NCBI RefSeq assembly: GCF_024506395.1
Contig: NZ_JANIBO010000002.1
Location: 62,001 to 126,000 of the forward strand
Source of the DNA: Cetobacterium sp. NK01
GTDB taxonomy: Bacteria; Fusobacteriota; Fusobacteriia; Fusobacteriales; Fusobacteriaceae
Reading direction: 5' to 3'
DNA: 64,000 bases
Shown here: positions 7,691 through 35,506 of the stretch, in pieces
Layout of the letters: each line of letters begins with the position of its first letter
Numbering within the stretch: position 1 is the first letter of the stretch
Made by a program: the position numbers and the translations under genes
Notes under the pieces: model-generated
Databases searched by the model: none
Told to the model about the DNA's origin: nothing
What the model saw: only the letters and a program-made list of their open reading frames with translations

Positions 7691-7725
7691 ATATTAATAA
7701 TATAAAAATACAAGGGGGAAAAGTT

Positions 7726-8175: not shown

Positions 8176-8183
8176 TAATTGTT

Positions 8184-8217
8184 AAAAAGTTGCATGTTAA
8201 ACTGCAACTTTTTTTAT
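8184..8217 (+). terminator. Intrinsic terminator
   Basis: An 11-bp stem AAAAAGTTGCA / TGCAACTTTTT encloses an 8-base loop and continues into a T tract. Confidence 0.92.
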
Positions 8218-8224
8218 GCTCAAT

Positions 8225-8253
8225 TTGACCAGAGCTTTAAATCATGTTACAAT
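8225..8253 (+). promoter_or_regulatory. Sigma70-type promoter of the BCCT gene
   Basis: TTGACC (8225-8230) and TACAAT (8248-8253) are spaced by 17 bases, placing transcription start just before the ribosome site at about 8271. Confidence 0.75.
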
Positions 8254-8285
8254 ATACTTATTATTTACAAAAAGGGAGGTTTTAC

Positions 8286-9917: not shown

Positions 9918-9931
9918 AAGATTTAATTTAA

Positions 9932-9961
9932 AAGCTGTAGATGATTAGTTGTCTACAGCTT
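9932..9961. terminator. Bidirectional terminator between BCCT and lacI-type genes
   Basis: AAGCTGTAGA and TCTACAGCTT form a perfect 10-bp stem, with A/T tracts on both sides. It sits between convergent genes and overlaps the stop of the minus-strand regulator. Confidence 0.85.
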
Positions 9962-10946
9962 AATTTTTTATTTTTTCAGAGCCTTTTAATTTTAAAATAG
10001 GATTTATAATAATTTTTTGAGTATGCTCTGTATTATTTTTTAATTTTTTAAATAACATTTTTGCAGAAATCAATCCTATTTCAGAAATAGATCTAGTAAT
10101 AGAGCTTATATTTAAATTTAATATATCAAAATAATCTGGATTATCAAATCCGATGATAGAAATTTTATTTTTTTTATTAACTTCATTTTGGTATTTTATA
10201 AAACCAAGTGTAATAAGATTGCTACAGGAAAAAATAGCTGATAGATTGGAGTTTTTTGAACAAATATCCTTTGCAACATTGTAACCATCTTGAACTTCTA
10301 AGTCGATTTCATAAATAAAATTATTATTAAATTCAATATTATAAACTTTTAGAGCGTGACAATAACCAAGAAATCTATTATACATATTTTTATGTTTCAA
10401 TTTTCCAACTAAAATTCCGATATTACTATGATTCTCTTTTATTAAAGCTTCTGTTGCGAGAAAACCTGCTTTAAAATCATCTAAAAAAACTCCATCATGA
10501 TAAAAATCGAGCTCTCGATCAAATAAAACAAAGGGGATAGAATAGTCTTCTAGTTTTTTTAAATTTTTTTCAGAGTTACTACCACCAGAAGGACACATTA
10601 TAACACCTAGAATATTTGATTTAATTATAGAATCAATTGATTCTATTTCATTTTGAAAGTTTTCATCTGTATCAAAAATTAATACTTGATAGGACTCTTT
10701 TCTTGACTCTTCAGTTATCTTTTTTACAATTTCAGAAAAAAAAGGATTTTTCAAATCTGAGACAATAACAGCAATTCTTTTTATATCATTAGCTATTTTA
10801 TAAGAGTTATTATAAAATCCAGACTCTATTAAAAGTTTTTCAATTAAATCTCGTTTTTCTTTTCCTACACCTGTTTTATTATTTAAAACTCTAGATACTG
10901 TTGAAACAGAGGTGTTTGCACTTTTAGCAATTTCTTTTAATTTCAT
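9960..10946 (-). CDS. LacI-family transcriptional regulator of the fucose locus
   Basis: The 328-residue protein has an N-terminal LacI helix-turn-helix (MKLKEIAKSANTSVSTVSRV, residues 1-20, then the hinge helix region) and a periplasmic-binding-like effector domain (about 60-325) with VIVSDLKNPFFSEIV and SIIGFDNPDYFDIL. It is divergent from the fuc operon, and a perfect palindrome lies between them. The family represses sugar operons and is released by the sugar or a phosphorylated intermediate. The ligand is inferred to be L-fucose or a catabolite, from context only. The ATG at 10946 follows GGGAGGAACC. Confidence 0.9.
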   Translation of the reverse strand: MKLKEIAKSANTSVSTVSRVLNNKTGVGKEKRDLIEKLLIESGFYNNSYKIANDIKRIAVIVSDLKNPFFSEIVKKITEESRKESYQVLIFDTDENFQNEIESIDSIIKSNILGVIMCPSGGSNSEKNLKKLEDYSIPFVLFDRELDFYHDGVFLDDFKAGFLATEALIKENHSNIGILVGKLKHKNMYNRFLGYCHALKVYNIEFNNNFIYEIDLEVQDGYNVAKDICSKNSNLSAIFSCSNLITLGFIKYQNEVNKKNKISIIGFDNPDYFDILNLNISSITRSISEIGLISAKMLFKKLKNNTEHTQKIIINPILKLKGSEKIKN

Positions 10947-11037
10947 AAGGTTCCTCCCTAAAATTAAGCTGATATATTTTTAAGTATATACCAGAAATAG
11001 AAAAAAATGTATATATTTAATATAATTTTTTCTGAAA

Positions 11038-11059
11038 TTTACGCAAATTTTTGCGTAAA
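11038..11059. promoter_or_regulatory. Perfect palindromic operator in the lacI-fuc intergenic region
   Basis: Half-sites TTTACGCAAA and TTTGCGTAAA, exact reverse complements, flank a TT centre. The CG-containing word stands out in a very AT-rich gap. Position between a divergent LacI regulator and its target operon makes it the likely binding site. No second copy is visible in the window. Confidence 0.7.
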
Positions 11060-11086
11060 TAAATTATAAAATTCCTTGTTTTGTTA

Positions 11087-11115
11087 TTGATTTCAAGAAA
11101 AATATAAAGTATATA
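11087..11115 (+). promoter_or_regulatory. Candidate fuc operon promoter
   Basis: TTGATT (11087-11092) and TATATA (11110-11115) have a 17-base spacer. The palindromic operator ends 28 bases upstream of the -35. Confidence 0.5.
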
Positions 11116-11172
11116 TCTAATAGAATAAAAAATATACACAGTGTTTTACTGAAAATAGGGAGGTAATTTTAA

Positions 11173-11820
11173 TTGAAAATTGAGCATATTAGAGAAAAAA
11201 TTATTGCAACATCGCTGAAAATGTTGAGTGATCAACTTACAAATGGAACAGCAGGAAATATTAGTATCTACGATAGAAGTGAAAATTTAATCGCAATAAC
11301 TCCTTCAGGAATTCCATATTCACTTTTAAAACCTGAAGATGTATCAGTTGTTGATTTAGATGGAAATTTAATAGAAGGAAAAACACCAAGTAGTGAGTTA
11401 GAGATGCATTTAATGCTCTATAGAAATCGAAATAATATAAATGCAGTGATACATGGTCACACTAAATATTCAACAGCCATAGCATGTTTAAGAAAAAACT
11501 TACCTGCAATAGATTATATGATAGCAGTTACTGGTGACAAAGAAGTTAGATGTGCTAATTATGCAAGTTATGGAACAAAAGAACTAGCTGAAAATTGTTT
11601 TAATACTATGAGAAATTCAAGAGCGTGTCTATTAGCTAACCATGGAATAACAACAGCAGGAGAGGATATTGAAATAGCTTATAATGTTTTAACTCAAGTA
11701 GAATATATTTCAAGTTTGTATCTATTATCTTCATCTGTTGGAGAGCCAGTAATTATAGAAGATGAAGAAATATATAATATGATAGAAAGATTCAAAGATT
11801 ATGGTAAAAAAATAAAATAG
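11173..11820 (+). CDS. fucA: L-fuculose-1-phosphate aldolase-like class II aldolase
   Basis: The 215-residue protein is a zinc aldolase of the class II/adducin family. It cleaves L-fuculose 1-phosphate to dihydroxyacetone phosphate and L-lactaldehyde. The metal ligands match E. coli FucA: HGH at 94-96 and H157 in ANHGI, with the catalytic Glu at 75 in SSELEMH. NGTAGNISI near 24-32 binds the phosphate. The length equals the family norm. The start is a TTG at 11173 with a GGGAGG site. First gene of the operon. The presence of fucI downstream favours fuculose over rhamnulose phosphate. Confidence 0.88.
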   Translation: MKIEHIREKIIATSLKMLSDQLTNGTAGNISIYDRSENLIAITPSGIPYSLLKPEDVSVVDLDGNLIEGKTPSSELEMHLMLYRNRNNINAVIHGHTKYSTAIACLRKNLPAIDYMIAVTGDKEVRCANYASYGTKELAENCFNTMRNSRACLLANHGITTAGEDIEIAYNVLTQVEYISSLYLLSSSVGEPVIIEDEEIYNMIERFKDYGKKIK

Positions 11821-11829
11821 GGAGGTTTT

Positions 11830-13164
11830 ATGAAATCCGTTTTATGTTTAGATTTAGGTGCTTCTAGTGGAAGAGCAATTATTGTTACAAATAATAATAA
11901 TTGCTTAGAATTAAATGAAGTTCATAGATTTCCAACAAAAACTTTAAATAAAAATGGAAAAATTTATTGGGATTTGCCCTATATTTTAAATGAAATTAAA
12001 ATAGGAATAAAAAAAGCACTTAAAGAAAATGCAAACATTCGATCTTTAGGGATAGATACTTGGGGATGTGATTATGGATGGTTGGATGAAAATGGTCAAT
12101 TTTTTAGAAATCCAAGATCATATAGAACTTCTATACCACAAAAAGTAATTGATGAGGTTCATAATAAAATATCATTGGAAGAACACTATAATATTTGTGG
12201 AAATGGTCATTTTGCATTTAATTCAATATATCAATTATATCATGATATAAAGTATGAAAATATATTAGAGAATGGTGCTAAAGAATTTTTATTTATGCCA
12301 AACTTAATTTTATATTATTTAACAGGAGAAAAAGTATGGGAATATACTATAGCTTCTACCTCTGGATTATTAAATGCTGAAAATCGAGATTGGTCTAAAA
12401 CTATTTTCCAAAAGTTAGAACTTCCTTCAACTATTAAAGGTGAGCTGACTCATCCAGGGACTACATCTTATTTTTTAAAAGATGAAATTTTAAAAGAGTT
12501 AGATATATCTCAAAATATACCAATAGTTTGTGTTCCAGGTCATGATTCAGCTTGTGCAGTTATTGGAGCTAATTTAGATAACAATAGTGCATATTTGATA
12601 AATGGAACTTGGTCTCTTTTAGGAGTTGAGCTTTCTAAAACTATAACTGATTTAGTAGGGTTAAAAAAGGGATTGGTAAATGAAGGATCTTTAGAAAAAA
12701 AAATAAGATTTATGTCTATGACAATAGGAACGTTACCATTACAGTCTTTAAGAAATCAATGGAAAAAAGAAAATGAAGATATAGATTTCAAAGATTTTTC
12801 AAATCTAGCTAAAAATTCTATTTTGGATAATCATATTGAAATAACTGAAGAGTTTTTAAACACCACTGATATTGAAAATCTAATAAAAGATAAATATTTT
12901 AAAAAGTATCATTCTGTAATAAATTCTAAAGAAGATATTTTAAGAATAATCTATAACAGTTTAGGAAATAACTATAGAGAATCTTTAGAATTAATAAAAA
13001 CGTTATCTAATAAAGAGATCAATAATGTTGTGCTTTTAGGAGGAGGTAATCAAGATAGTTTTTTAATAGAAATTATTAAAAAATCTTTTGATTGTTCCAT
13101 TACAATAGGTCCAATTGAAGCTTCAGTTACAGGAAATGCTTTAGCACAATTTAAAAGTTTATAA
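11830..13164 (+). CDS. FGGY carbohydrate kinase, rhamnulokinase/fuculokinase type
   Basis: This 444-residue sugar kinase phosphorylates a ketose at C1. The N-terminal ATPase fold begins CLDLGASSGRA. The WDLPYILNEI segment and LGIDTWGCDYGWLDENG (about residues 76-92) are typical of the rhamnulokinase (RhaB) branch. The second domain has PGHDSACAVIGA near 237-248 and a glycine-rich ATP loop VVLLGGGNQDSFL near 396-408. By sequence it is RhaB-like; by neighbours (fucA, fucI) it probably phosphorylates L-fuculose. It starts 9 bases after fucA with GGGAGG as ribosome site. Confidence 0.85.
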   Translation: MKSVLCLDLGASSGRAIIVTNNNNCLELNEVHRFPTKTLNKNGKIYWDLPYILNEIKIGIKKALKENANIRSLGIDTWGCDYGWLDENGQFFRNPRSYRTSIPQKVIDEVHNKISLEEHYNICGNGHFAFNSIYQLYHDIKYENILENGAKEFLFMPNLILYYLTGEKVWEYTIASTSGLLNAENRDWSKTIFQKLELPSTIKGELTHPGTTSYFLKDEILKELDISQNIPIVCVPGHDSACAVIGANLDNNSAYLINGTWSLLGVELSKTITDLVGLKKGLVNEGSLEKKIRFMSMTIGTLPLQSLRNQWKKENEDIDFKDFSNLAKNSILDNHIEITEEFLNTTDIENLIKDKYFKKYHSVINSKEDILRIIYNSLGNNYRESLELIKTLSNKEINNVVLLGGGNQDSFLIEIIKKSFDCSITIGPIEASVTGNALAQFKSL

Positions 13165-13180
13165 TTAATAGGAGGAATTT

Positions 13181-14482
13181 ATGATAAAAAAAATAATTAA
13201 ATCACTTACTCTTTGTAGCATATGTTTAGCTTTTCTTGCTTGTGGAGATGAATCTAAAGATAACGATAAGGTTAAAATTAGATTATTAACTAGAATGGCT
13301 GGAACATCAAATTCAGTCAAAGTTTATAAAGATATTATTTCTCAGTTTGAACAAAAACATCCAGATGTTATTGTTGTAGATGAATCTCAAGGAGATGAAT
13401 CTTCTTTTAATAATAAATTAAAAACAGATTTAGCCTCTGGGACTTTACCTAATATTTTTAGAATACAAGGAGTCGCTAATTTAGGGGAATATGTTGATAC
13501 AAACTTATTAGCTGATATGAAACCAATTTTAGATGAAGATAAAGAGTGGGGTGAAGGATTTAATAAAGGGGCTTTAAATTATTACACAATTCCTGGGAAA
13601 GATGGAATATATGCAATTCCTATGGAACAAGGATTAATGGGATTTTATTATAACAAAGATTTGTTTAATAAAGCAGGTATTGAAAAGTTTCCTGAAACTT
13701 GGGATGAATTCTTAGTTGCTATTGATAAATTAAAAGATATTAATGTTATTCCAATTGCTTTAGGTGCAAAATCTACTTACTCAGTAGGACATTTACATAA
13801 TCAGATTTTTTATCGTTGGTTAGGTGTTGATGCAGCTAAAAAACTAGGTTCAAGAGAAATTAAGTGGACTGACCCTGAAGTTGTTCAAACTTTAGAGTTT
13901 ATAAAAGTTTTAAATGATAAAGATGCTTTTTCTCCTTCAGCTCCTGGAATAAGTAATGATATTGCTACAACTCAGTTTAAAAATGGCGAAGCAGCTATGA
14001 TATTTACTGGTCCGTGGAATATATCTACATTTGTAGATCCTGAAAAAACACCAGTTTATGCAAATATAGATTTTGCTAAATTTCCTTATTTTAAAGAAAA
14101 AGCAGAATTTAAAAATCAAGACATGCAAGTTATTAGTCCATATATGATTTCTGGAAATTTAAAAGGAAAAGAAAAAGATTATACAATTGAACTTTTAAAA
14201 ATGTTAACTTCTAAAGACGCTGGAATTAGATATGTAAATGAAGCAGAATTTTTACTTCCTCGTACTGATTTTGAAGCGGATAGAAATAAAGTAGGAGAGT
14301 TATTCTTAGCTAATAATACATTAGCTCAAACTTCTGATGGAATAGGTGTTGATGTCTTTGATTTTGATAAAATACCATCTATGCAAGATAGAACTAGAAA
14401 CTCTATTGTTAGTGTTTTAATGGGAGCTTCGCCAATGGAAGCTGGAGAAGAAATTCAAGAAGAGATTTCAAGAAAGGAGTAG
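13181..14482 (+). CDS. Sugar ABC transporter substrate-binding lipoprotein
   Basis: A 433-residue family 1 extracellular solute-binding protein. The signal sequence ends in a lipobox (FLAC, Cys at about residue 21), so it is membrane-anchored. Features of the family are IPMEQGLMGFYYNKDLFNKA near residues 147-166, WDEFL near 175 and GEAAMIFTGPWN near 270. It delivers sugar to the two permeases encoded next. The operon suggests a fucose-containing oligosaccharide or fucoside as ligand, which is inference. AGGAGG precedes the ATG. Confidence 0.88.
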   Translation: MIKKIIKSLTLCSICLAFLACGDESKDNDKVKIRLLTRMAGTSNSVKVYKDIISQFEQKHPDVIVVDESQGDESSFNNKLKTDLASGTLPNIFRIQGVANLGEYVDTNLLADMKPILDEDKEWGEGFNKGALNYYTIPGKDGIYAIPMEQGLMGFYYNKDLFNKAGIEKFPETWDEFLVAIDKLKDINVIPIALGAKSTYSVGHLHNQIFYRWLGVDAAKKLGSREIKWTDPEVVQTLEFIKVLNDKDAFSPSAPGISNDIATTQFKNGEAAMIFTGPWNISTFVDPEKTPVYANIDFAKFPYFKEKAEFKNQDMQVISPYMISGNLKGKEKDYTIELLKMLTSKDAGIRYVNEAEFLLPRTDFEADRNKVGELFLANNTLAQTSDGIGVDVFDFDKIPSMQDRTRNSIVSVLMGASPMEAGEEIQEEISRKE

Positions 14483-14485
14483 TTA

Positions 14486-15376
14486 ATGATAAAAATTCAT
14501 AAAAAATCAGATAAAATGTTAATCCTAGGATTTGTTTTACCGGCATTACTTATATATGTTGCTTTTCAAATTATCCCACTAATGGGGGCATTGGTATTTT
14601 CTGTTTCTAAATGGAATGGATTAGCTGTCTCTCCTGTTAAATTCGTTGGATTAGATAATTTTAAAATTCTTATGAATGATAAGAATTTCTTAATATCTTT
14701 AAAAAATATGATAAAAATGGTGGTATTTAGTGTTGCCTTTCATACTCCGATAGCTCTTTTGTTAGCTGTAGCTATAAACTCAAAGTGTAGAGGTCATAAA
14801 CTTTTTAAAGCTATATTCTTTGTTCCTACTATTTTTCCTTTAACTGCAGTAGGACTTATGTGGTATTTTATATTTATGCCCAATGGTGCTCTAAATTTAT
14901 TTTTAAAATCTGTAAATTTACATCAGCATGTTGTACCTTGGCTAATAAATGAAAGTACAGCTATGAATGCTATAATATCAGTTAATATTTGGGTTGGTGT
15001 TGGGTTTTATATGGTTATTTTATTGGCAGGATTAGCAACAATTCCAGATGAACTTTACGAAGCTGCACAAATTGATGGAGCTAATTCAATTAAACAATTT
15101 TTCTTAATAACTATTCCAATGTTAAAGCCAATCATAGGAATATGTATTGTTATGGATATTATAGGTTCTATTAAAGTTTTTGATCTAATATTTGCTATGA
15201 CTGAGGGTGGACCTAATGGTTTGACTAATCTACCAACAACTTTACTTTATTACGAATCTTTTAGATATGATAATTTTGGAAAGGGAAGTGCAATTGGAGT
15301 TTTACTTTTACTTTTAGCATTATCTTTAGTATTTTTAAGTAATTTTTTAACTGGAGAAAAAAGGAGGAATAAATGA
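14486..15376 (+). CDS. Sugar ABC transporter permease (MalF/UgpA type)
   Basis: The 296-residue protein has six predicted membrane spans. The EAA loop that contacts the ATPase is DELYEAAQIDGANSIKQFF near residues 188-206. It starts 3 bases after the binding protein and overlaps the next permease by 4 bases, so the pair is co-translated. It forms a heterodimer with the downstream permease. Confidence 0.9.
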   Translation: MIKIHKKSDKMLILGFVLPALLIYVAFQIIPLMGALVFSVSKWNGLAVSPVKFVGLDNFKILMNDKNFLISLKNMIKMVVFSVAFHTPIALLLAVAINSKCRGHKLFKAIFFVPTIFPLTAVGLMWYFIFMPNGALNLFLKSVNLHQHVVPWLINESTAMNAIISVNIWVGVGFYMVILLAGLATIPDELYEAAQIDGANSIKQFFLITIPMLKPIIGICIVMDIIGSIKVFDLIFAMTEGGPNGLTNLPTTLLYYESFRYDNFGKGSAIGVLLLLLALSLVFLSNFLTGEKRRNK

Positions 15377-22244: not shown

Positions 22245-22934
22245 ATGAATGACTGTGTAATTTTAAAAGGAAAAAAGGACAGATTGGTTGTACAATTAGA
22301 TAGTAACATCGATTTCAGCTCTTTAAAAGATAAATTTTCTGAAAAGATTAAACAGGCAGAAGCATTTATAGGTGATACAAAGATAGCTATTGAATTTACA
22401 AATAGAAAATTAACAGAAATAGAGGAAAATATTTTAATCGGAGTAATAAATAAAGAGACTAATATAAAAATAGCCTTTATTTTTTCTGAAAAATCAACTT
22501 TTTCACAGTTGCCAGGAGGACAACTTCCTTTTAATAATATAAAAGATATTACAGAAGAGGGGACTACAAAATTTCACAGAGGAACTTTGCGTTCTGGTCA
22601 TAATTTAGAATTTGATGGAAATGTAGTTGTGCTTGGAGATGTAAATCCAGGAGCTGTAATAAAATCAAAAGGAAATGTTATTGTACTAGGTTATTTAAAT
22701 GGAACTGTGTATGCAGGAGAAGTTGATGGATCAGAAGCATTTGTTGGGGCATTTTCATTAAATCCTATTCAAATAAAGATAGGACAGATTATTGCAAAAA
22801 ATCCAAGTACAAATGTGTTAGATGTTAATAAAGTAAAAAAAACTATGGATTTTGAAGTGGCATATCTAAAAGATGGAAATATATTTATTGAAAAATTCAA
22901 CAAGGCGACTCTAGAGCATATGATAAAAATATAA
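22245..22934 (+). CDS. minC: Septum site-determining protein MinC
   Basis: MinC inhibits FtsZ polymerisation away from midcell. The 229-residue protein has an N-terminal FtsZ-binding domain (about 1-100) and the C-terminal beta-helix that binds MinD, with the hallmark RSGHNLEFDGNVVVLGDVNP near residues 118-137 and an AGEVDGSEAFVGAF segment. It is first in the minCDE operon, with its own promoter. The ATG follows AGGAGCG. Confidence 0.96.
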   Translation: MNDCVILKGKKDRLVVQLDSNIDFSSLKDKFSEKIKQAEAFIGDTKIAIEFTNRKLTEIEENILIGVINKETNIKIAFIFSEKSTFSQLPGGQLPFNNIKDITEEGTTKFHRGTLRSGHNLEFDGNVVVLGDVNPGAVIKSKGNVIVLGYLNGTVYAGEVDGSEAFVGAFSLNPIQIKIGQIIAKNPSTNVLDVNKVKKTMDFEVAYLKDGNIFIEKFNKATLEHMIKI

Positions 22935-22953
22935 GGGAAAAGCAGGAGGAATT

Positions 22954-23745
22954 ATGGGAAAAGTTATTGTAATTACTTCAGGAAAAGGTGGAGTAGGGAA
23001 GACGACAAGTAGTGCAAACTTAGGGGCAGCACTAGCTATGCAAAATCAAAAGACACTATTAATTGATACAGATATTGGATTAAGAAATTTAGATGTTGTA
23101 ATGGGATTAGAAAATAGAATTGTGTATGATTTAATCGATGTTATAGAAGGGGTTTGTAAACCAAAGCAAGCCATTATAAAAGATAAAAGAAATGAAAATT
23201 TACATCTACTACCAGCAGCTCAATCAAGAGATAAGAATGCAGTTACTCCTGAGCAAATGAGAGAGTTAATAGATGTATTAAAAGCTGAGTATGATTTTGT
23301 ATTAGTTGATTGTCCTGCAGGAATAGAGCAAGGATTTAAAAATGCAATCTCAGCAGCAGAGGAAGCATATGTAGTTACAACTCCAGAAATTTCAGCTGTA
23401 AGAGATGCAGATCGTATTATTGGATTATTAGAAGCAAATGAAATAAGAAATCCAAAATTAATCGTAAATCGTTTAAGAGTAGAGATGGTTAAGGATGGAA
23501 ATATGTTAAGTGTAGATGATGTTACAGATATACTTGGAATAAAACCAATTGGAATTGTACCTGATGACGAGAATATAGTTATATCTACAAATAAAGGTGA
23601 GCCTTTAGTTTATAGAGGAGAATCTTTAGCTGCAAGAGCATATGTAAATATAGCTTCAAGAACATTAGGACAAAATGTAGAATTTTTAGACTTAGATCCT
23701 AAAATTGGATTTTTTGATAAAATAAGAGAAATATTTAAAAAGTAA
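22954..23745 (+). CDS. minD: Septum site-determining ATPase MinD
   Basis: The 263-residue ParA/MinD-type ATPase recruits MinC to the membrane and is cycled by MinE. The deviant Walker A GKGGVGKTTSSAN is at residues 10-22. DTDIGLRNLDVVMGLENR (about 39-56) and the Walker B region FVLVDCPAGIEQG follow. The C-terminal amphipathic helix FFDKIREIFKK is the membrane-targeting sequence. AGGAGG precedes the ATG. Confidence 0.98.
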   Translation: MGKVIVITSGKGGVGKTTSSANLGAALAMQNQKTLLIDTDIGLRNLDVVMGLENRIVYDLIDVIEGVCKPKQAIIKDKRNENLHLLPAAQSRDKNAVTPEQMRELIDVLKAEYDFVLVDCPAGIEQGFKNAISAAEEAYVVTTPEISAVRDADRIIGLLEANEIRNPKLIVNRLRVEMVKDGNMLSVDDVTDILGIKPIGIVPDDENIVISTNKGEPLVYRGESLAARAYVNIASRTLGQNVEFLDLDPKIGFFDKIREIFKK

Positions 23746-23758
23746 TAGGAGGCGAAAT

Positions 23759-24013
23759 ATGGGATTTTTTAGTTTTTTAAATAAAGAAAAATCTAGTTCA
23801 GTAGCTAAAGACAGATTGAAGTTAGTACTGATACATGACAGAGCTATGCTGTCTCCAAAAATGCTTGAAACTTTAAAAGATGAATTAATTGCAGTGATAT
23901 CTAAATATGTAGATATAGATAGAGATTCTTTAAATATTGAAGTTTCTCAAGAAGCTGAAACGGGAAGAGAAACAGCATTAATAGCAAATATACCAATAAA
24001 AATAAAGAAATAG
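23759..24013 (+). CDS. minE: Cell division topological specificity factor MinE
   Basis: The 84-residue MinE stimulates MinD ATP hydrolysis and restricts MinC/MinD to the poles. It has an N-terminal amphipathic region (MGFFSFLNKEKS), the MinD-contact segment AKDRLKLVLIHDRA near residues 20-33, and the dimerisation beta-sheet. The presence of MinE, rather than the Bacillus DivIVA/MinJ system, supports an oscillating Min system. It sits 13 bases after minD behind AGGAGGCG. Confidence 0.95.
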   Translation: MGFFSFLNKEKSSSVAKDRLKLVLIHDRAMLSPKMLETLKDELIAVISKYVDIDRDSLNIEVSQEAETGRETALIANIPIKIKK

Positions 24014-26273: not shown

Positions 26274-27173
26274 ATGAAAAAAGTTATAGTTTTCCTATTT
26301 ATCACGTCGATATCTTTATTAAAGGGAGATGATATGAGTAAATTAAAGATGAGAGAACTTATTAAACAAATAAAAATCCAATCCAAAGAAAAAATATTAG
26401 TGCCACAAAATGGAACTAATATTTTTTTTAATGGAGATAAATTAGATGAAGAATTTATTAAAAATATAGATGGGGTTTCACAGGAATCTCTTTTTTATGG
26501 TGTAGGAGGAGTAAATAAAGAAACACCAATAGAAGAAAGAAACTATCTTTTGAAAAATTTGGTAGAGATAGAAAAAAGTGGAAAAGTTGTATTTTCAGTA
26601 AATTATGCAAATGATAAAAAATTAAGAGATATAATTTTAAAAGATACAAGAAAGTATAATTTTATAGGAGAAGCAGTGCCATCTTATAGTGCTAACGCAA
26701 TATTTAATCCTCTTCAAAAAAATAGTTCAAAAGATGTATTAAGTTTAAAAGATGTTAAAAATTTTTTATATATATTAAATCCTGAAAAATTTAATAATTT
26801 AGATGATTATTATAGAGTTTTAAAAAATACAGATTTTGATTTACTTATAATGGAACCAAGTTTAAATGGAGAATTCTTATCTAAAAAGCAGATAGAATCT
26901 TTAAAAGTTAGAAAAGATGGAACTAAAAGATTGATAATTGCTTATTTTAGTATAGGAGAAGCAGAAAATTATAGATATTATTGGAAAAAATCGTGGAATA
27001 AAAAATTACCTAGTTGGATTGTAAAGGAAAATGAGAATTGGAAAGGTAATTATATAATAAAATATTGGGATTTAGAGTGGAAAGAGATTATAAAAAATTA
27101 TCAAAAGAAATTAGATGATATAGGAGTTGATGGATATTATCTAGATACTATTGATACATATGAACAGTTTTAA
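26274..27173 (+). CDS. Exported GH114/GH166-like (PelA hydrolase-type) glycosidase
   Basis: A 299-residue protein with a signal peptide at about 1-18. From about residue 150 it matches the TM1410/endo-alpha-1,4-polygalactosaminidase fold: FDLLIMEPSLNGEF, LIIAYFSIGEAENYRYYW, NYIIKYWDLEWKEII and VDGYYLDTID. The acidic residues of IMEP, GEAE and LDTID are the expected active-site positions. In Pel systems this domain is the N-terminal hydrolase of PelA, an alpha-1,4-N-acetylgalactosaminidase. Here it is a separate gene. It stops only five residues after LDTID, shorter than usual at the C-terminus. It starts the Pel-like operon, 12 bases before pelD. Confidence 0.75.
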   Translation: MKKVIVFLFITSISLLKGDDMSKLKMRELIKQIKIQSKEKILVPQNGTNIFFNGDKLDEEFIKNIDGVSQESLFYGVGGVNKETPIEERNYLLKNLVEIEKSGKVVFSVNYANDKKLRDIILKDTRKYNFIGEAVPSYSANAIFNPLQKNSSKDVLSLKDVKNFLYILNPEKFNNLDDYYRVLKNTDFDLLIMEPSLNGEFLSKKQIESLKVRKDGTKRLIIAYFSIGEAENYRYYWKKSWNKKLPSWIVKENENWKGNYIIKYWDLEWKEIIKNYQKKLDDIGVDGYYLDTIDTYEQF

Positions 27174-27185
27174 AGGTGGTTTATT

Positions 27186-28391
27186 ATGAAAAAAAATTTT
27201 TTTATAAGTATAGCAGAAAGTATTTTATATTGTCTTTTAGTATATTTAATATTTTTTTATTATTCAAATTTTAAAAGTGAATTTTTAACTATGAATATAC
27301 AACCTTTAGCTATTGTAGTTGGGTTAATAGCTTTAAAATATGGAGTTTACAGCAGTTTACAAACTGTTTTAGTAGCTTCATTTTTTTATATTTTTTCATA
27401 TTATCAACTAGGAAATGACCCAGTTGTTTTCTTTTTAGATTTTAATTACTATAAATTTATATTAATATTCTTTTTTATAGCATTAACTCTAGGAAGAGTT
27501 TCAGATAACTTTAGAAATAGAATAGTTGAACTACAAGAAAAAAATATAGATTTAGATGAAAGATTAAAAAGTCAAAGAGAAAAAAACATTATGTTAGTAA
27601 ATATAAATGAAAGATTAAAAACGAGAATAATAGGAAGTAAGGAGAGTATTTTAACTTTACATCAAATAACTTCTTCAATATTAACAGAAAATGTAGAGCG
27701 AATATTCACACAGATCTTAGAAATTTTAATAGATTTTTTAGGAAGTGACGTAGTTTCAATATACATTTATAATAAAGAGAGAAATATTTTTCGAGGAAGA
27801 ATAAAAATTGGGAATAGTTTATTGCCTAATTTTATTGAGGTTAAAGAGGGTGATTTATATTCTAAAGTTTTAAAAAATAAAGTTACTTTAGAAGGAAACA
27901 GAGAGCTAAAAGAACCAGTTTATATTTCTCCAATTTTAAAAAATAATGAAGTAGTAGGAGTTATTAATATTGAAAGATTAAAATATGGAAATGAAGAGAA
28001 ATATTTGCTAGAACTTTTTAAAGTTATTAGTCAATGGATAAATAATGCTTTGGTAAAAGCTTTTGAAGAAAATGAAAAAGAAATAAAAAATAATGTTTTT
28101 GAAAATACAAGAATTTATAACTTAAAATACTTTTCCTATGTATTAGAAGAGGATAAGAAAAGAAAAAAACTTTTTAATACAGAATATATAGCTTTAGAAG
28201 GAAAAAATCCAGGATTAACACCAATTCAATTAAATGAACTATTGAAAGGAAAAGTTAGAGATATAGATATTATAGGTATGAATGAAGAGGTTATAAAATT
28301 TTTATTTGTAAATGCTTCTAAAAAAGATAAAGATCTTCTCACTAAAAGAATTGGAGATATATTGTTAGGAGTTGAACTTTATGAAATCTAA
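27186..28391 (+). CDS. pelD: PelD-like c-di-GMP receptor of Pel polysaccharide synthesis
   Basis: The 401-residue protein has about four N-terminal membrane spans (residues 7-105), a short coiled coil (about 115-150), a GAF domain (about 155-285), and a degenerate GGDEF domain. The I-site R-x-x-D is intact as RDID at 358-361. The catalytic GGDEF position five residues later reads EEVIK, so it should bind c-di-GMP but not make it. This matches P. aeruginosa PelD, which switches on Pel synthesis when c-di-GMP binds. It overlaps the next gene by 11 bases. The ATG follows AGGTGG. Confidence 0.85.
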   Translation: MKKNFFISIAESILYCLLVYLIFFYYSNFKSEFLTMNIQPLAIVVGLIALKYGVYSSLQTVLVASFFYIFSYYQLGNDPVVFFLDFNYYKFILIFFFIALTLGRVSDNFRNRIVELQEKNIDLDERLKSQREKNIMLVNINERLKTRIIGSKESILTLHQITSSILTENVERIFTQILEILIDFLGSDVVSIYIYNKERNIFRGRIKIGNSLLPNFIEVKEGDLYSKVLKNKVTLEGNRELKEPVYISPILKNNEVVGVINIERLKYGNEEKYLLELFKVISQWINNALVKAFEENEKEIKNNVFENTRIYNLKYFSYVLEEDKKRKKLFNTEYIALEGKNPGLTPIQLNELLKGKVRDIDIIGMNEEVIKFLFVNASKKDKDLLTKRIGDILLGVELYEI

Positions 28392-30210
28392 ATATATATT
28401 GGGATTAGTATTAGTAGCGGTTTTTTTCTTTCAAGAGCTAAGAGTAAAAAATATAGAAGATCTATTTAATTTGAAGCAAACTTACAACTTCGAACTTCCT
28501 CCACCAATTTCTGGAAATTTAAAAATAGATAATCCAAAAAAATATTTAGTGCTATATGAAGAAAAAAGTGAAGGAAGCGAAGAAATAAAAAATGGAGTAG
28601 AAGAGGTTTTTCGATTTTCTAAAATAAAGTATGATATTTTACCAATTTCCACTACCAAGGTATTAGATTTAAAAGATTATAGTTTAATACTATTAGTAGC
28701 AGAAAATTATAGTGGATTAACTTATGATAATTATATAAGAATAAAAGAAGGAGTTGAAAGTGGTAAAAATCTTTTTATAACAGAAAGAGCTTACAGAAGT
28801 CCTTTTAATTCTTTAGCAGGTATTGAAAAAGTAGATGAATTTATTGAAACAAAAAGTTTTCAATTTAAAAAAGAGATATTTCCAGGTTTAAAAAATTTAA
28901 GGCCTGGAAGCATTATTTTTGGGAGTTCAGGTTTGAAAATAACATTGAAAAATGACGTGGATATAATTGCTACAACTGACGATCAAAAACCACTAATGTG
29001 GATTAATAAATATGGAAAAGGAAAAGTTTTTTATAGCAATTCAACTTTATTTCAAGGGAAAATATTTAGAGGAATTATGAAACAACTTATTAGTTATATT
29101 GAAGACGTTTCTTTTTATCCAATTTTAAATTCAAAAATTCTTCAAATAGATGACTTTCCATCTCCTATTCCAGTTGTAGAAAATGAAATAATTCAAAAAG
29201 AGTATGGACTAGATACAAGTGGATTTTTTAATCTTATTTGGTGGCAAGATATGATGGGAATTGTTGAAAGACAAAGACTTAAAATGACTGGTTTTTTAAT
29301 TGTGGAATATAATGATTTAACAGTGAAAGATAAAATACTTGGAATTGGAAAGAGAACGTTTAATGACTTAAGCAAAAGAGGAAGAGAGTTAAAATCTATA
29401 GGAGGAGAATTAGGATTACATGGATACAATCACTACTCTTTAGGTTTAGAAAAGGAAATTAATTATGAACATTATGGATATACCCCTTGGGAAAGTGTAG
29501 ATGCTATGAAAAAAGGTTTAACTATAGCTAAAGATGAGATTAAAAAACTTTATGGGGATAACTTTCATATATACAGTTATGTTCCACCTAGTAATTTGTT
29601 GCCTAAAAGTGGTAAACAAGCTATAGTAAAAACTTTTCCAGATTTAAAAGCATTTTGTGGAATATTTTATGGAGAATATGAACCAGGATTACTTTTACAA
29701 GAGATAGGAAGAGATCCTGATTTTAAAGATGTATATAGCTTGCCAAGAATGTCTTCAGGATTTTTTTATAATGATACAATTATTTGGCAAATATTAAATG
29801 GAATAGGTGCTTATGGTTATCTTTCTCATTTTATTCATCCAGATGATATTATGGATAAAGAAAGAGGAGAGGGAAAATCTTGGGAAGAACTAAAAAAAGA
29901 GTTTGAAAAAATTTTTTATACTATAAATAAAGAATATAGTGTATTAGAGCCCAATATTCAGAGTGAAATGACCTATAATTATAGTGTTATAGAAACAATA
30001 AGTGTTGCGTATGAGAAAAAAGATGAAAATGTATATATAAATATTGATAACTATAGAGACGAGTTTGCAGCTCATTTTAGAGCAAAAGGAAAAAAAATAA
30101 TTAATGTCATAGGTGGAGAATTTAAAGTAATAAATAAAACATCAGAAGATATTCTGTATCTAATAAGTGTTAAAAGTCCAGAGTTAAAAATTGTTATGGA
30201 GGATTTCTAA
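28381..30210 (+). CDS. PelA-type polysaccharide deacetylase (DUF2194-like)
   Basis: A 609-residue protein with an N-terminal hydrophobic signal or anchor (residues 5-20). A glutamine-amidotransferase-like N-domain (about 50-245) is followed by a NodB-type deacetylase domain with motif 1 LQIDDFPSP (about 255-263), motif 2 LHGYNHYS (about 344-351), motif 3 SYVPPSNLL (about 402-410) and SHFIHPDD late in the domain. The metal-binding Asp and two His are present. In Pel synthesis this activity deacetylates the polymer and is needed for export. It corresponds to the stand-alone PelA-DA of Gram-positive pel clusters. I start it at the ATG at 28381, after AGGAG; the in-frame TTG at 28372 touches that site. 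Confidence 0.82.
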   Translation: MKSKYILGLVLVAVFFFQELRVKNIEDLFNLKQTYNFELPPPISGNLKIDNPKKYLVLYEEKSEGSEEIKNGVEEVFRFSKIKYDILPISTTKVLDLKDYSLILLVAENYSGLTYDNYIRIKEGVESGKNLFITERAYRSPFNSLAGIEKVDEFIETKSFQFKKEIFPGLKNLRPGSIIFGSSGLKITLKNDVDIIATTDDQKPLMWINKYGKGKVFYSNSTLFQGKIFRGIMKQLISYIEDVSFYPILNSKILQIDDFPSPIPVVENEIIQKEYGLDTSGFFNLIWWQDMMGIVERQRLKMTGFLIVEYNDLTVKDKILGIGKRTFNDLSKRGRELKSIGGELGLHGYNHYSLGLEKEINYEHYGYTPWESVDAMKKGLTIAKDEIKKLYGDNFHIYSYVPPSNLLPKSGKQAIVKTFPDLKAFCGIFYGEYEPGLLLQEIGRDPDFKDVYSLPRMSSGFFYNDTIIWQILNGIGAYGYLSHFIHPDDIMDKERGEGKSWEELKKEFEKIFYTINKEYSVLEPNIQSEMTYNYSVIETISVAYEKKDENVYINIDNYRDEFAAHFRAKGKKIINVIGGEFKVINKTSEDILYLISVKSPELKIVMEDF

Positions 30211-31088
30211 TGAAGATAAAATGTTTATTATTAGGGTTAGTATTTTGTATTGCAGATACAATCTTATTTATATATTTTCAAAATGAATTTTTAACATTTA
30301 GATCTAAATTCTGGATAGGGCATATGTTATTAGCCATACTTTTTATATATATAACAAACAAGTTTTCAAAAGACAAACAATTTGATATATTTATTTTAAT
30401 TTTTCCAATAGTAGGTTATATATTGTTTATGATTAATAAAGTTTTATTTTTTAGAAAATATTTTAATAGTGAAGTTGAAATAAATGAGGATTTAGAAAAA
30501 TATATATTAAATGAAGAGAAAGAGATTATAGTTAATCAATCTATTGATCTGAATTTAATTGGTGCATATGACATACTCTCTGTTGGGACTCCAGTAGAGA
30601 AAAAAAACTTTTTAATAGGTTTTGAAACTCAAAATTTAAGTTTTAAGGTTCAAATTTTAAAAAAAGCTTTATGGGATTCAGATATAGAGGTTATACATTA
30701 TGCAGCTACAGAGATAAATAAAATAGATGAAAATTTTCAAAAGTTAATCAAAGAGAAAACATTAGAAAAAGATTTAAACTCTTTGTGTAATATCTATTTT
30801 GATTATTGTACTTCTGGACTTTTAGTAGGAGAAGTTTTAGAGTTTTATCAACTTAAATTTATAGAACTTATTAAAGAGAAGGGGTCTTTAGAAGTATATG
30901 ATTACTATAAACTTTTGATCATATATAGTGATATGAAAGAGTATGAACTTTGTAGTAAATTGATTATTAAAATTAAAGAGAGTAAGAGATATAATACAGA
31001 AATTTTAAATTTTATAAAAAAATATTATTATGATTTAAATGATTATAAAATGTTGAAAGAGGTTGAAAAATGGCAAGAATCTGTCTAA
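30210..31088 (+). CDS. pelE: PelE-like membrane protein with TPR-like repeats
   Basis: The 292-residue protein has three N-terminal membrane segments (about 3-22, 36-50, 59-80) and a helical soluble part. The segment LKKALWDSDIEVIHYAATEI near residues 151-170 is characteristic of PelE, followed by TPR-like helices (YDYYKLLIIYSDMKEYELCS). In the Pel machine PelE forms the inner-membrane complex with PelD, PelF and PelG. The ATG overlaps the previous stop (TAATG), and it overlaps pelF by 19 bases. Confidence 0.82.
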   Translation: MKIKCLLLGLVFCIADTILFIYFQNEFLTFRSKFWIGHMLLAILFIYITNKFSKDKQFDIFILIFPIVGYILFMINKVLFFRKYFNSEVEINEDLEKYILNEEKEIIVNQSIDLNLIGAYDILSVGTPVEKKNFLIGFETQNLSFKVQILKKALWDSDIEVIHYAATEINKIDENFQKLIKEKTLEKDLNSLCNIYFDYCTSGLLVGEVLEFYQLKFIELIKEKGSLEVYDYYKLLIIYSDMKEYELCSKLIIKIKESKRYNTEILNFIKKYYYDLNDYKMLKEVEKWQESV

Positions 31089-32497
31089 TATGTGAAGGAT
31101 CTTATCCATATGTTGTAGGTGGAGTTTCATCTTGGATACAAGAGCTTGTAAAATCAAATGAAGAGCACGAGTTTTCAATAGTATGCATAATACCAAATTT
31201 AGAGTTTGCAAAGAATAAGTATGAAATTCCTAAAAATATTGTTGAGATAAAAAATGTAGTTTTAGATAAAAAATATGAGGTTTCGCCATTTAAAGTTTTA
31301 AAAAATAGAGTTATTTTTAATAAATTAGAAAATGAAATAGAAAAAGTTTTAAACTTTAAAACAGAAGAATTAAAAGAAACAACTAGAATTATAAAAAAAA
31401 TATCAAATAAAAAATATGGAAATCCATTAGAGATAATATTAAATAAAAGTTTTTGGAACAGTTTATTAAAATACTATAATAAAAATTATGAAGATATTGG
31501 TTTTAATACCTTTTATTGGACTTATAGAAATATATTTTTAAATTTAATATCCTTAGCACAAGAGGATTTACCTAAGGCGGATATATACCATCCAGTTGCT
31601 ACAGGATATTCAGGATATATTTCTGCTTTAGCTAAGTTACAAAATGGAGGCTCACTTTTATTAACAGAACATGGGATATACCCAAGAGAAAGAGAGGAAG
31701 AGATTATTGGAGCTAAGTGGATCGAGAAAGATTTTAAAAAAATATGGATAGATTTCTTTTATTTTCTATCTAAGTTAACTTATGATGAGTGTGATAAAAT
31801 TATATCTCTATTTGAGTATAATAAGCAATTACAAATAGAAAATGGAGCTAAAAAAGAGAGATGTAAGGTTATTCCAAATGGAATAGATGTAGATATGTAT
31901 TCTAAAATTATACATGAAAAAAGAGATGGATTTAGTGTAGGATCAGTTTTGAGAGTAGTTCCTATAAAAGATGTAAAAATGATGTTAAAAGGATTTAAAA
32001 TGGCTCTTCCAAAATTAAAAAATACAAAACTATATCTAATAGGGCCAACTGAAGAAAATAAAGAGTATTATAATGAATGTTTAGAATTAGTAAGAAATTT
32101 ACAACTTGAAGATGATGTTATATTTACAGGAAGAGTAGACGTGAAAGAGTATTATAAATTTTTAGATATTTTATTATTAACATCAATATCAGAAGGACAA
32201 CCACTTAGTATTTTAGAAGGGTTAGCTTGTGGAATACCATTTATAGCTACTGATGTAGGGAATTGTAGAGAGATATTAAAAGAGAAAGAGGAGGGAGAAG
32301 CTGGGATAATAGTTCCACCTACTTCATACTCAGATTTAGGGGAAGCAATAGTTTCATTTTTTCAAAATAAAGAAAAAATAAAAGAGATGGGAATAGTTGG
32401 AAAAAAAATTGTAGAAAGATATTATTCTAAAAAACATTTTATTGATTCTTATAAGATATTGTACAAAGAGTTAGGAGAGAAGAGATGGCAGGAATAG
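31070..32497 (+). CDS. pelF: PelF-type GT4 glycosyltransferase
   Basis: The 475-residue cytosolic glycosyltransferase has the PelF-specific start MARICLICEGSYPYVVGGVS and a GT-B fold. Near residue 200 is TEHGIYPREREEEI. The nucleotide-sugar binding part contains PNGIDVDMYS and the GT4 E-x7-E type motif SEGQPLSILEGLACGIP (about 375-391). PelF is the polymerase that uses UDP-GalNAc or UDP-GlcNAc. The start lies inside pelE and the end overlaps pelG by 13 bases, indicating tight coupling of pelEFG. Confidence 0.93.
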   Translation: MARICLICEGSYPYVVGGVSSWIQELVKSNEEHEFSIVCIIPNLEFAKNKYEIPKNIVEIKNVVLDKKYEVSPFKVLKNRVIFNKLENEIEKVLNFKTEELKETTRIIKKISNKKYGNPLEIILNKSFWNSLLKYYNKNYEDIGFNTFYWTYRNIFLNLISLAQEDLPKADIYHPVATGYSGYISALAKLQNGGSLLLTEHGIYPREREEEIIGAKWIEKDFKKIWIDFFYFLSKLTYDECDKIISLFEYNKQLQIENGAKKERCKVIPNGIDVDMYSKIIHEKRDGFSVGSVLRVVPIKDVKMMLKGFKMALPKLKNTKLYLIGPTEENKEYYNECLELVRNLQLEDDVIFTGRVDVKEYYKFLDILLLTSISEGQPLSILEGLACGIPFIATDVGNCREILKEKEEGEAGIIVPPTSYSDLGEAIVSFFQNKEKIKEMGIVGKKIVERYYSKKHFIDSYKILYKELGEKRWQE

Positions 32498-34599
32498 GAT
32501 TTGAATTGAAAAATTTATTTTCTGAAGAAAATAGTACGTTAGAAGATATAAAAGCTATAGCTTACTCAGCTCTTATAGGAGTAGGACCTTGGCTTATAAC
32601 TGTAATTACTTTAAATGTATTAATGTTTGTTGGGAAACAATATATCTTACTGAGAAGTGAAAGAAACTTATTCATGACAGCTATTGTATATTCATTTATA
32701 TTTTCTCAACTTTTAACAGGAACTATTCAATATTTAATAACAAGATTTATTTCAGATTGTATATATTCAGGAGAACAGAAAAAGCTGCGTTCAACATATA
32801 TTGGAGCAATAAAATTTATAACACTAATAGCATTTTTTATAGGTGTATTTTATTTTAAAAATACAAATCTATCTTGGTTTTTTACATATACATTAATACT
32901 ATTATTCTGTTTTCTATCAGGTATTTGGATAAGCATGAATTTTATATCTGTTATAAAAGATTATAGCTATTCTATTATAGCTTATGTCTTAGGGAATGTT
33001 GTAGCTATTTTAATGGGACTATATTTATTAGAGTATTCAAAAAATGATTTTTTTAAAAGTAATTTAGCTTTTTCAATTGTTCTTTCTTATACAGTAGGGA
33101 TAGCAGTAACATTTTTTATGTTATATATCTATTTAACCTATATATTTGAAAATTCTCAAGAAAATGAATTTGAGTTTTTAAGATCATTTAAAAGATATTC
33201 TTCATTAAGTTTTATTGGAATATTTTTAAATTTTGCTATGTGGTCTCATGTTTTTATAAATTGGATATATGGAAGTTCATATAGGGTAGGTGGAGTATTT
33301 TTAAGTTCACCTTTATACGAAGTAGCAGTATTTTACGCATTTTTTTTAACAATTCCCACAATGATATATTTTTTAGTTTTTATGGAAACAAAATTTTTCC
33401 CAAATTACAAGAGATATTATGCTATGTTAACATTAAATGGAAAGTTAAGGGAGATTAACGAGGAAAGAAAAAAGATGATGGAGATTTTAAAAGATGAGAT
33501 CTATTACATAATGGAATTACAATTTTTTATCTCTCTTTCAGTAGCATTAATTTCAAAATTGATATTTTTAAATTTTGGTATGGATTTATATTTGTTAGAT
33601 CTTTTTAGAATTATGATATTTGCGGCGTATTGTACAGTTTTTATAACTATATATATAACTATATTTTTATATTTTGATTCTAGAAAAGAAGCACTTTTTA
33701 TATCCTGTTTGTTTTTTTTATTGAGTGTATTATGTACCTTAGGGACATCTTTTTTAGGTGAAAAATATAGTGGGTTAGGCTTTTTTATAGCCTCTTTTAT
33801 AACTCTTATATGTTCTGAGTTAACTTTAGAAAAAATTTCAAAAGATTTAAACTATATAACTTTTTACAAACAAAATTTTTCTTTTAATATTCAAGCTCCA
33901 ATAATTGAAAAAGTTGAAAAAATATTAAATAAGAGATTTTTATTACCAATTTTAGTGGCTATTATTTTGCTGATAAGTGGATGTACTTCATCTCATACCC
34001 AAGATGGTTTTAATATGAAAACTAAAAGAAACTGGCACACAATGAGTTATTACAATAAAGCTGGATTTGATTATGATGGATATAATCAAGAGGGGATAAA
34101 CTCTAGGGGATTTACAAAAGAGGGATGGAATACATATACAGATTCTCCCTATGATTATTCCAACTTTGATTTTACAGGTATAAATAGTGAAACTGGTAAG
34201 AATATTGATAAAAGAGGATTTGATTATAAGGGATACAACTATTTAACAAAATCAAAATATGATAAAAATGGATTTGATTTTTTAGGAATAAATAAAGAAA
34301 CAAATACAGAGTATGATAAAAATGGATGGACATGGTATGGATTGAATAAAGAGACAAATAATTATTATGATAAAGCTGGATATAATTATGAAGGTTATAA
34401 TGAAGAGGGATATAATAGAGCAGGATATGATATAAATGGAAATAAAAAACCAAAAGAAGAGATAGAAAATATTACAGGAAACCAGAATGAAGAAGAGCTT
34501 TATGATAAGGATGGTTACGATAAATACGGTTATGATGAAAATGGAGTAAATAGAGAAGGATTTAATAGAAAAGGGGTGTATGTGGGAGATGAATATTAA
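32485..34599 (+). CDS. pelG: PelG-like transporter fused to a periplasmic lipobox and repeat domain
   Basis: The first 460 residues are a PelG-type MATE/Wzx-like integral membrane protein with about 12 spans, beginning MAGIGFELKNLF. PelG normally ends near 455-490 residues; this one has 704. The extension starts with an extra hydrophobic helix ending in a lipobox (LLISGC, C500, codon at 33982), then about 180 residues of D/N-x-x-G-aromatic repeats (523-697). No in-frame ATG, and no GTG or TTG with a ribosome site, lies just before that helix, so it is a true fusion in this sequence. An extra span would put the repeats in the periplasm. Overlaps both neighbours. Confidence 0.88.
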   Translation: MAGIGFELKNLFSEENSTLEDIKAIAYSALIGVGPWLITVITLNVLMFVGKQYILLRSERNLFMTAIVYSFIFSQLLTGTIQYLITRFISDCIYSGEQKKLRSTYIGAIKFITLIAFFIGVFYFKNTNLSWFFTYTLILLFCFLSGIWISMNFISVIKDYSYSIIAYVLGNVVAILMGLYLLEYSKNDFFKSNLAFSIVLSYTVGIAVTFFMLYIYLTYIFENSQENEFEFLRSFKRYSSLSFIGIFLNFAMWSHVFINWIYGSSYRVGGVFLSSPLYEVAVFYAFFLTIPTMIYFLVFMETKFFPNYKRYYAMLTLNGKLREINEERKKMMEILKDEIYYIMELQFFISLSVALISKLIFLNFGMDLYLLDLFRIMIFAAYCTVFITIYITIFLYFDSRKEALFISCLFFLLSVLCTLGTSFLGEKYSGLGFFIASFITLICSELTLEKISKDLNYITFYKQNFSFNIQAPIIEKVEKILNKRFLLPILVAIILLISGCTSSHTQDGFNMKTKRNWHTMSYYNKAGFDYDGYNQEGINSRGFTKEGWNTYTDSPYDYSNFDFTGINSETGKNIDKRGFDYKGYNYLTKSKYDKNGFDFLGINKETNTEYDKNGWTWYGLNKETNNYYDKAGYNYEGYNEEGYNRAGYDINGNKKPKEEIENITGNQNEEELYDKDGYDKYGYDENGVNREGFNRKGVYVGDEY
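34051..34575 (+). repeat. Coding pentapeptide-like repeats at the end of pelG
   Basis: About 20 units of the pattern D/N-x-x-G-[YFWIV] occur in PelG residues 523-697, for example DKNGF, DKAGY, NEEGY, NREGF. They are grouped in runs separated by short K/E/T-rich spacers such as NKETN. Net composition is acidic, aromatic and Gly/Asn rich. The DNA repeats are imperfect, so they have diverged but kept the protein pattern. Confidence 0.85.
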
Positions 34600-35506
34600 G
34601 CAAATAGTTTATATATTTTTTCTATTTAATATGACCTCTTTTGCTGTTGGTCGAGAGATCTTAAACTTTTATATAGAGGAATCAGAAAACAATATTTATC
34701 AAAATTATGGAGAGTTAGAAAGTAAGGCTGGTAAAAAATTTTATAAGTGGAAAATAGGAACTGGATCATCAAATCTTAATGAAAATTGGATTTTTGACTA
34801 TGATATAGAAAAAAAATATGATAAAGAGGAGAATACTGATGGATGGGAAAATACCTTTTCTTTATCTAGAAAATTAACAGAAAAAGAGATTTTTGGAAAA
34901 AGTTGGTATATGGATATAGGACCATATGTTAAATATAATGTAAGTGATATAGCTGGAGATTTTGGTGAAGATTTTAAAGAAAATAAATATTCTTTGAGAT
35001 ACAGAGTCAGAACAAATTCAGATTTAGGTTTAGGTGGAGCTTATTGGGGAGTTGACTTTTTTATTTCATCTATTGATACAAACTCAAGAGATGGATACTC
35101 TTTTGAGGGAAACTTCACAGGAAATATAAATTTAGGATATGGTTTTCAGAATTTTTTCACAATTTACAACGAGTATTTAGATTATGCTAACAATAGAGGA
35201 ACATATTTATTTAGAGTTGAAAATAACTTTAGATGGACATACGATCTTAGTGAAAAATTTGCTTTGTCAATAGATTCAGAAATAGATTCGTATAACTATT
35301 TTAGAAATACAGATCAAGATAAATCTTTTAAATTTAATATAGGTCCATATATATTGTACAGTCAAGATATAACTGATGAATTCCGTATATTTGCTAAGGT
35401 TGGAGTTGTAGGATATAATTTTGAAGAGGTTAAAACAAAATTTTCAAGTGTTTCTGAATCTGGACTATATATAAAAATTAGATGTGGTTTTGAATATATT
35501 TTTTAA
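34580..35506 (+). CDS. Outer-membrane beta-barrel protein at the end of the Pel operon
   Basis: The 308-residue protein has a signal peptide (about 1-23, ending FAVG) and a body of alternating aromatic/polar strands, such as YSLRYRVRT, GNINLGYGF and FRVENNFRW. The last strand GLYIKIRCGFEYIF ends in Phe, the usual C-terminal signal of outer-membrane barrels. I predict about 12 strands. I recognise no named family. It overlaps pelG by 20 bases and is the last gene before a gap, so it is very likely part of the Pel system, in the place where other diderms have the PelB porin. The start could also be the ATG at 34589. Confidence 0.7.
   Translation: MWEMNIKQIVYIFFLFNMTSFAVGREILNFYIEESENNIYQNYGELESKAGKKFYKWKIGTGSSNLNENWIFDYDIEKKYDKEENTDGWENTFSLSRKLTEKEIFGKSWYMDIGPYVKYNVSDIAGDFGEDFKENKYSLRYRVRTNSDLGLGGAYWGVDFFISSIDTNSRDGYSFEGNFTGNINLGYGFQNFFTIYNEYLDYANNRGTYLFRVENNFRWTYDLSEKFALSIDSEIDSYNYFRNTDQDKSFKFNIGPYILYSQDITDEFRIFAKVGVVGYNFEEVKTKFSSVSESGLYIKIRCGFEYIF

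Follow-up and report, generated by a model that had tools for sequence, protein, structure and literature searches.

The pel locus of Cetobacterium sp. NK01 is best read as a phylum-specific layout for Pel exopolysaccharide export, in which a lipoprotein derived from the inner-membrane exporter PelG and a small beta-barrel would act at the outer membrane. We analyzed a 64,000-nucleotide stretch of this genome (hereafter the window; positions 62,001 to 126,000 of contig NZ_JANIBO010000002.1, assembly GCF_024506395.1), where seven same-strand genes, overlapping or near-contiguous, fill positions 26274-35506 in the order pelA_H, pelD, pelA_DA, pelE, pelF, pelG and barrel. From these sequences and their relatives we consider it reasonably probable that Fusobacteriota possess a Pel system of their own type, exporting through the PelG-derived lipoprotein and the barrel instead of PelC and PelB. 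We lean slightly towards the fuller proposal that this is a third architecture for Pel export, with PelG made as a polyprotein, its lipoprotein partner freed by an internal signal peptide, and PelB replaced by the small barrel. All seven open reading frames lie where a preliminary description of this DNA had placed them, although likelier starts differ for two (ATG 28381 for pelA_DA, ATG 34589 for the barrel). The features are as follows.

26274..27173, + strand: pelA_H, signal peptide followed by a circularly permuted GH191-type endo-alpha-1,4-galactosaminidase (predicted); E71 as likely general acid/base, D291 as likely nucleophile
27186..28391, + strand: pelD, N-terminal transmembrane (TM) helices, predicted GAF domain and predicted degenerate GGDEF-like domain with RDID (RxxD), from GAF matches and the RxxD alignment
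28381..30210, + strand: pelA_DA, membrane-anchored CE26-type polysaccharide de-N-acetylase; frame open from TTG 28372; DUF2194 4e-97
30210..31088, + strand: pelE, N-terminal TM helices and a soluble domain, assigned by position and conservation in relatives
31070..32497, + strand: pelF, GT4 glycosyltransferase (Pel polymerase); NF038011 1.5e-106, PF11997 8e-83
32485..33918, + strand: pelG core, 12-TM exporter of the multidrug/oligosaccharidyl-lipid/polysaccharide (MOP) type, residues 1-478; PF16933 2e-125
33919..33984, + strand: internal signal peptide (predicted), PelG TM13, residues ~479-499, N-in/C-out, ending in the lipobox LISG-C500
33982..34596, + strand: PelG extension, predicted lipoprotein with G-[YF]-[DN]-x-x repeats and repeats of 18 residues, from the alignment
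34580..35506 (likely start 34589), + strand: barrel, a putative small outer-membrane beta-barrel, probably of 12-14 strands, with C-terminal Phe

A pel operon in a diderm without detectable PelB or PelC

The genome encodes BamA-type Omp85 proteins (1e-57) and LpxC (3e-95), and because of these the cell is a diderm, which puts the outer membrane that the preliminary description had presumed on firm ground. Searches of this genome and of other Fusobacteriota likewise bore out its expectation that no PelB or PelC lies elsewhere, with no PelB barrel and no credible PelC among them. The Pfam model of the PelB barrel (PF24604), which recovers PelB of proteobacterial operons as a control, exceeded its cut-off in 0 of 98 Fusobacteriota genomes; it was used in place of a single-protein PelB search of the genome itself, whose lack of a match is uninformative alone. 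A PelC profile built from three operons returned only fragments or weak matches (E > 0.02, best E 0.03), and the tetratricopeptide repeat (TPR) family TPR_16 had just two matches in the genome, both below cut-off. The window barrel aligned with PelB by hhalign at a probability of 0.2%, a figure that comes from a shallow, badly aligned three-row PelB profile.

PelG exceeded its cut-off in 24 of the 98 genomes, and the pel gene block recurs around it in Fusobacteriaceae and in a second family, f4, presumably Leptotrichiaceae. Because the block is kept in ~12 genera of these two families, and because pN/pS (the ratio of nonsynonymous to synonymous polymorphism) is 0.16-0.30 for PelF, the PelG core, the extension and the barrel, the layout is far beyond what chance would give. 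Synteny across Fusobacteriota, a check that the preliminary description had proposed, places both the extension and the barrel among the conserved parts of the locus. PelF and PelG are also present in Thermotogota, a control in the PelG search, and have been reported from another diderm phylum in Selenomonas sputigena (Negativicutes) (PMC13339959).

The PelG extension and the small barrel

The PelG core matches PF16933 over residues 1-460 (420 bits, cut-off 29) and has 12 hydrophobic segments ahead of residue 450. In most species, PelG runs past residue 460 to a length of 700-1050 residues, and the window copy carries a C-terminal extension of 205 residues. Since PelG has 12 helices (PMC13254593), this extension should face the periplasm. 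It is preceded in the window by a thirteenth hydrophobic segment that reads as a predicted lipoprotein signal, comprising KR, a hydrophobic stretch and an LISGC lipobox, and the lipobox Cys (C500 in the window) is the sole Cys after residue 450 in almost every fused PelG with a lipobox. The extension is rich in Gly, Tyr and Asn with repeat periods of 5 and 18, and resembles a lipoprotein that has been joined to PelG by an internal signal peptide.

Relatives of the locus carry both fused and separate forms. In genus g14 the lipoprotein is a gene of its own, ~20 bp after pelG and with its own lipoprotein signal peptide, and the window extension is homologous to free-standing lipoprotein genes in loci L045, L046 and L047. 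Some Leptotrichiaceae (genera g19, g21 and g22) have signal-peptidase-I-like sites (KIKA, AHA-A, ANA-A) in place of the Cys, and g24 has the Cys form with HAA after the Cys. Taken together, the kept lipobox Cys, the signal-peptidase-I-like replacements and the separate g14 gene point to a freed product. The PelG tree, rooted with a distant proteobacterial outgroup on a long branch, branches first to g7, then to g14 with its separate lipoprotein, and then to a single fused clade (99/99), an order that fits one fusion event, in which an ancestrally separate lipoprotein gene joined pelG. A mis-joined gene was ruled out as the source of the extension by open frames in many genomes and by purifying selection (pN/pS ~0.2). 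An AlphaFold model of the extension, from an input alignment two sequences deep (the window and locus L003), reached a predicted local distance difference test (pLDDT) score of 53 and gave no usable fold, and profiles of the extension and the barrel had no matches among PDB sequences.

The short barrel after pelG had already been singled out in the preliminary description. It matched no family in Pfam or NCBIfam; it has a signal peptide, a terminal aromatic residue and, in a 16-row alignment of its family, invariant Gly and aromatic positions, and 4 of the 16 members match PF13505 (best 3.7e-8). Beta-amphipathicity is high (z 5.4). The AlphaFold model, again from two sequences, is all-beta with ~13 strands at pLDDT 48, a low confidence at which it was used for strand content alone, and Foldseek with this low-confidence model found outer-membrane barrels as its leading matches, CymA and OmpG first. 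By these several signs the protein is outer-membrane-like.

The barrel family and PelG occur together. Strong barrel matches were found in 22 genomes, 21 of them with PelG, giving 21 genomes with both, 3 with PelG only, 1 with the barrel only and 73 with neither (Fisher p ~3e-17). The lone barrel genome without PelG is 62% complete. Two of the PelG-only genomes belong to genus g7, and the third, a draft of 81% completeness, has a barrel match that is short and weak. The barrel adjoins the pel genes in almost every PelG genome; in g14 it is divergent and lies beside pelA_H. Genus g7 has another C-terminal PelG fusion (L084:4198-7359 and L038:8142-11240), an Asn-rich linker followed by a conserved domain of ~360 residues that ends in Phe. 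That this domain is the same barrel was considered and found unsupported.

Proposed export route and its alternatives

We propose that PelD (in its window copy probably responsive to cyclic di-GMP, c-di-GMP), PelE and PelF would make an N-acetylgalactosamine-type polymer that PelG moves over the inner membrane. In the periplasm, PelA_DA would deacetylate the polymer and the permuted GH191 hydrolase would trim it, and passage through the outer membrane would then proceed with neither PelB nor PelC. PelG would be translated as a two-part precursor, with the 13th hydrophobic helix serving as its internal signal peptide and cut before C500 by lipoprotein signal peptidase or, in some Leptotrichiaceae, by signal peptidase I. 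The freed lipoprotein, repeat-rich and aromatic/Gly-rich, could bind and guide the polymer, with the small barrel as the probable outer-membrane channel. The literature searched, with incomplete coverage, contains no description of Pel export in Fusobacteriota or of a PelG-lipoprotein fusion. With a conserved extension and barrel, no PelB or PelC found and a diderm cell, the earlier suggestion of an undescribed export layout is supported. That suggestion had included neither the signal peptide inside PelG, the free-standing lipoprotein gene of one genus, the hydrolase permutation nor a second pel operon of the genome.

Several points weigh against this proposal. The barrel model is poor, and at ~12-14 strands the barrel would be smaller than the 16-stranded PelB; a PelC profile of three sequences might miss a strongly diverged PelC; and genus g7 has neither the repeats nor a separate barrel. 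Extension-type repeats are shared by fusobacterial proteins unrelated to pel and so need not be export-specific. PelBC is strongly anionic, whereas the net charge of the extension is mildly negative and sometimes positive. For Fusobacteriota, we found no published experiment on the production of Pel, on cleavage or on export. As a separate observation on these repeats, non-pel proteins with G-[YF]-[DN]-x-x repeats lie at L103, L105, L106 and L107 in other Fusobacteriota, some with lipoprotein signal peptides.

An unlikely alternative is that the extension stays uncut, anchored in the inner membrane by TM13, and that its repeats reach across the periplasm to the barrel in the manner proposed for the PelB TPR scaffold, so that PelG and barrel form one envelope-spanning channel. 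PelB itself has an N-terminal TM helix that is probably uncleaved and a long periplasmic scaffold (PMC12141448), the length of the extension changes with repeat number, and the g7 PelG runs on through its long linker to a Phe-ending domain; however, that domain has no significant beta-amphipathicity, and release fits the cleavage motifs and the arrangement of the g14 genes better than an uncut bridge does. A literature search for polyproteins with internal signal peptides gave nothing useful.

It is less probable still that the lipoprotein binds Pel on the cell surface and keeps the polymer attached to the cell, the barrel serving to expose the lipoprotein or to import hydrolysed oligomers, with the polymer leaving elsewhere. 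The aromatic/Gly repeats do resemble a sugar-binding module and recur in other fusobacterial lipoproteins, and the best fold matches of the low-confidence barrel model include sugar-uptake porins such as CymA, but the fusion to the exporter and the near-perfect pairing of barrel and PelG suggest that the two parts are core components and not accessories, and no alternative channel was found at the locus. A non-Pel or non-exported product, which would make the absence of PelB and PelC uninformative, is very improbable: the Pel assignment comes from sequence similarity and no activity measurement was possible for the T. maritima GH191 enzyme (PMC12054363), yet the Pel toolkit is present as PelF, PelG, PelD, a CE26 deacetylase and a hydrolase resembling galactosaminidases, and a GalE-like gene adjoins pelD in Fusobacterium vincentii.

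Enzymes, genome setting and known systems

The identities of PelF (357 bits against NF038011, cut-off 100) and PelG are secure from their family matches. PelE matched no family in Pfam or NCBIfam. The GAF match of PelD is weak, under the Pfam cut-off, and PF16963 was unmatched; its RDID aligns with the RxxD motif of PelD from a proteobacterial pel operon, and several fusobacterial relatives keep this motif in the same degenerate GGDEF-like domain, so that the window PelD is probably a c-di-GMP receptor. The genome holds 8 GGDEF matches. The GalE-like epimerase gene of F. vincentii (L054:2992-3966), divergent from pelD, could supply uridine diphosphate N-acetylgalactosamine (UDP-GalNAc). In F. 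nucleatum, pelG and pelF are expressed and regulated (PMC9848294, PMC12826042), with responses of the pel genes to putrescine (PMC12826042) and to P. gingivalis (PMC9848294).

Of the two PelA-type enzymes named in the preliminary description, the deacetylase is indeed separate and of the B. cereus (CE26) type. Most of the protein can be aligned with PDB 9zau_A (3e-70), and it keeps IDDFPSP, GLHGYNH and HFIHPDD, the Asp-Asp, His and His-x-Asp-Asp metal and catalytic motifs. We presume that 9zau is the B. cereus PelA_DA, since its motifs agree with the paper on that enzyme (PMC13254593). The hydrolase gene is also present, but instead of the GH166 domain of P. aeruginosa PelA it encodes a circularly permuted GH191-like barrel (GH114 1.4e-11, TIGR01370 2e-40). 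By phmmer, its residues 183-298 correspond to 49-163 of the Thermotoga maritima GH191 protein TM1410 (the N-terminal half) and 28-115 to 185-266 (the C-terminal half), and D291 and E71, both invariant across 14 permuted rows, correspond to D156 and E225, the putative active-site pair of TmGH191 (PMC12054363). The predicted enzyme thus shares both homologous (beta/alpha)8 barrel halves and the catalytic Asp and Glu with TM1410, whereas its chain starts with the second half; circular permutation is unmentioned in PMC12054363, and no description of a permuted GH191 was found in the literature searched, with incomplete coverage. A truncated hydrolase, which Pfam coverage of half the domain might suggest, was ruled out by the permutation. 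The g7 hydrolases (L084, L038) have the unpermuted order, so both forms occur within one phylum.

The window lies on a replicon of 609,639 bases (G000:C2) in a genome of 3.1 Mb, and the nearest named relative locus is from an uncultured Cetobacterium. C. somerae carries the same gene block on a 705 kb plasmid, where the NCBI annotation names pelF and pelG and leaves pelE and the barrel hypothetical. Directly upstream of the operon lie minC, minD and minE (22245-24013), and the min-pel block of C. somerae thus puts cell-division genes on a secondary replicon. The Cetobacterium sp. NK01 genome has a second, divergent pel operon (L033, G000:C4:85000-104000, positions 6810-15047) in the order pelD-A_DA-E-F-G-barrel, with an 804-aa PelG (42% identical), a PelD that has no GGDEF-like domain, and no pelA_H at the locus. 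In genome G040 pelA_DA and pelF are fragmented (L038:3893-8140), by decay or assembly errors. Rfam and tRNA scans had no matches, and a promoter and terminator scan gave results not above shuffled sequence.

If the proposed route is true, Pel export through an outer membrane is feasible without the design of a TPR-porin and lipoprotein ring, and the Gram-positive and Gram-negative Pel machines are linked. Fusobacterium and Cetobacterium would then have a probable matrix polysaccharide system whose pel genes are annotated piecemeal and whose export proteins are "hypothetical". The fusion of an exporter to its lipoprotein partner by an internal signal peptide would be an unusual gene design. The cytochrome b/c1 precursor FbcH of Bradyrhizobium is a membrane polyprotein cut by signal peptidase, and PelG would resemble it as a polytopic membrane protein joined to an exported protein via an internal signal peptide; what PelG would export in this way is a predicted lipoprotein, and it belongs to an exopolysaccharide system.

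With pelDEA_DAFG of B. cereus ATCC 10987 (PMC7112168, PMC13254593) the fusobacterial locus shares a separate membrane-anchored CE26-type deacetylase, PelD/E/F/G, a separate hydrolase and the lack of PelB and PelC. The Gram-positive-like gene order claimed in the preliminary description fails, as the window reads D-A_DA-E-F-G against D-E-A_DA-F-G in B. cereus. The fusobacterial cell is moreover a diderm, with a lipoprotein-like extension on PelG, an added putative outer-membrane barrel gene and a permuted GH191 hydrolase. With pelABCDEFG and PelBC of P. aeruginosa (PMC12141448) it shares the PelD/E/F/G core, a diderm envelope, and a lipoprotein and barrel presumed to sit at the outer membrane; in contrast, neither PelB (TPR scaffold and 16-stranded barrel) nor PelC has a detectable homologue in it, and its deacetylase and hydrolase are encoded by two separate genes and belong to other families.

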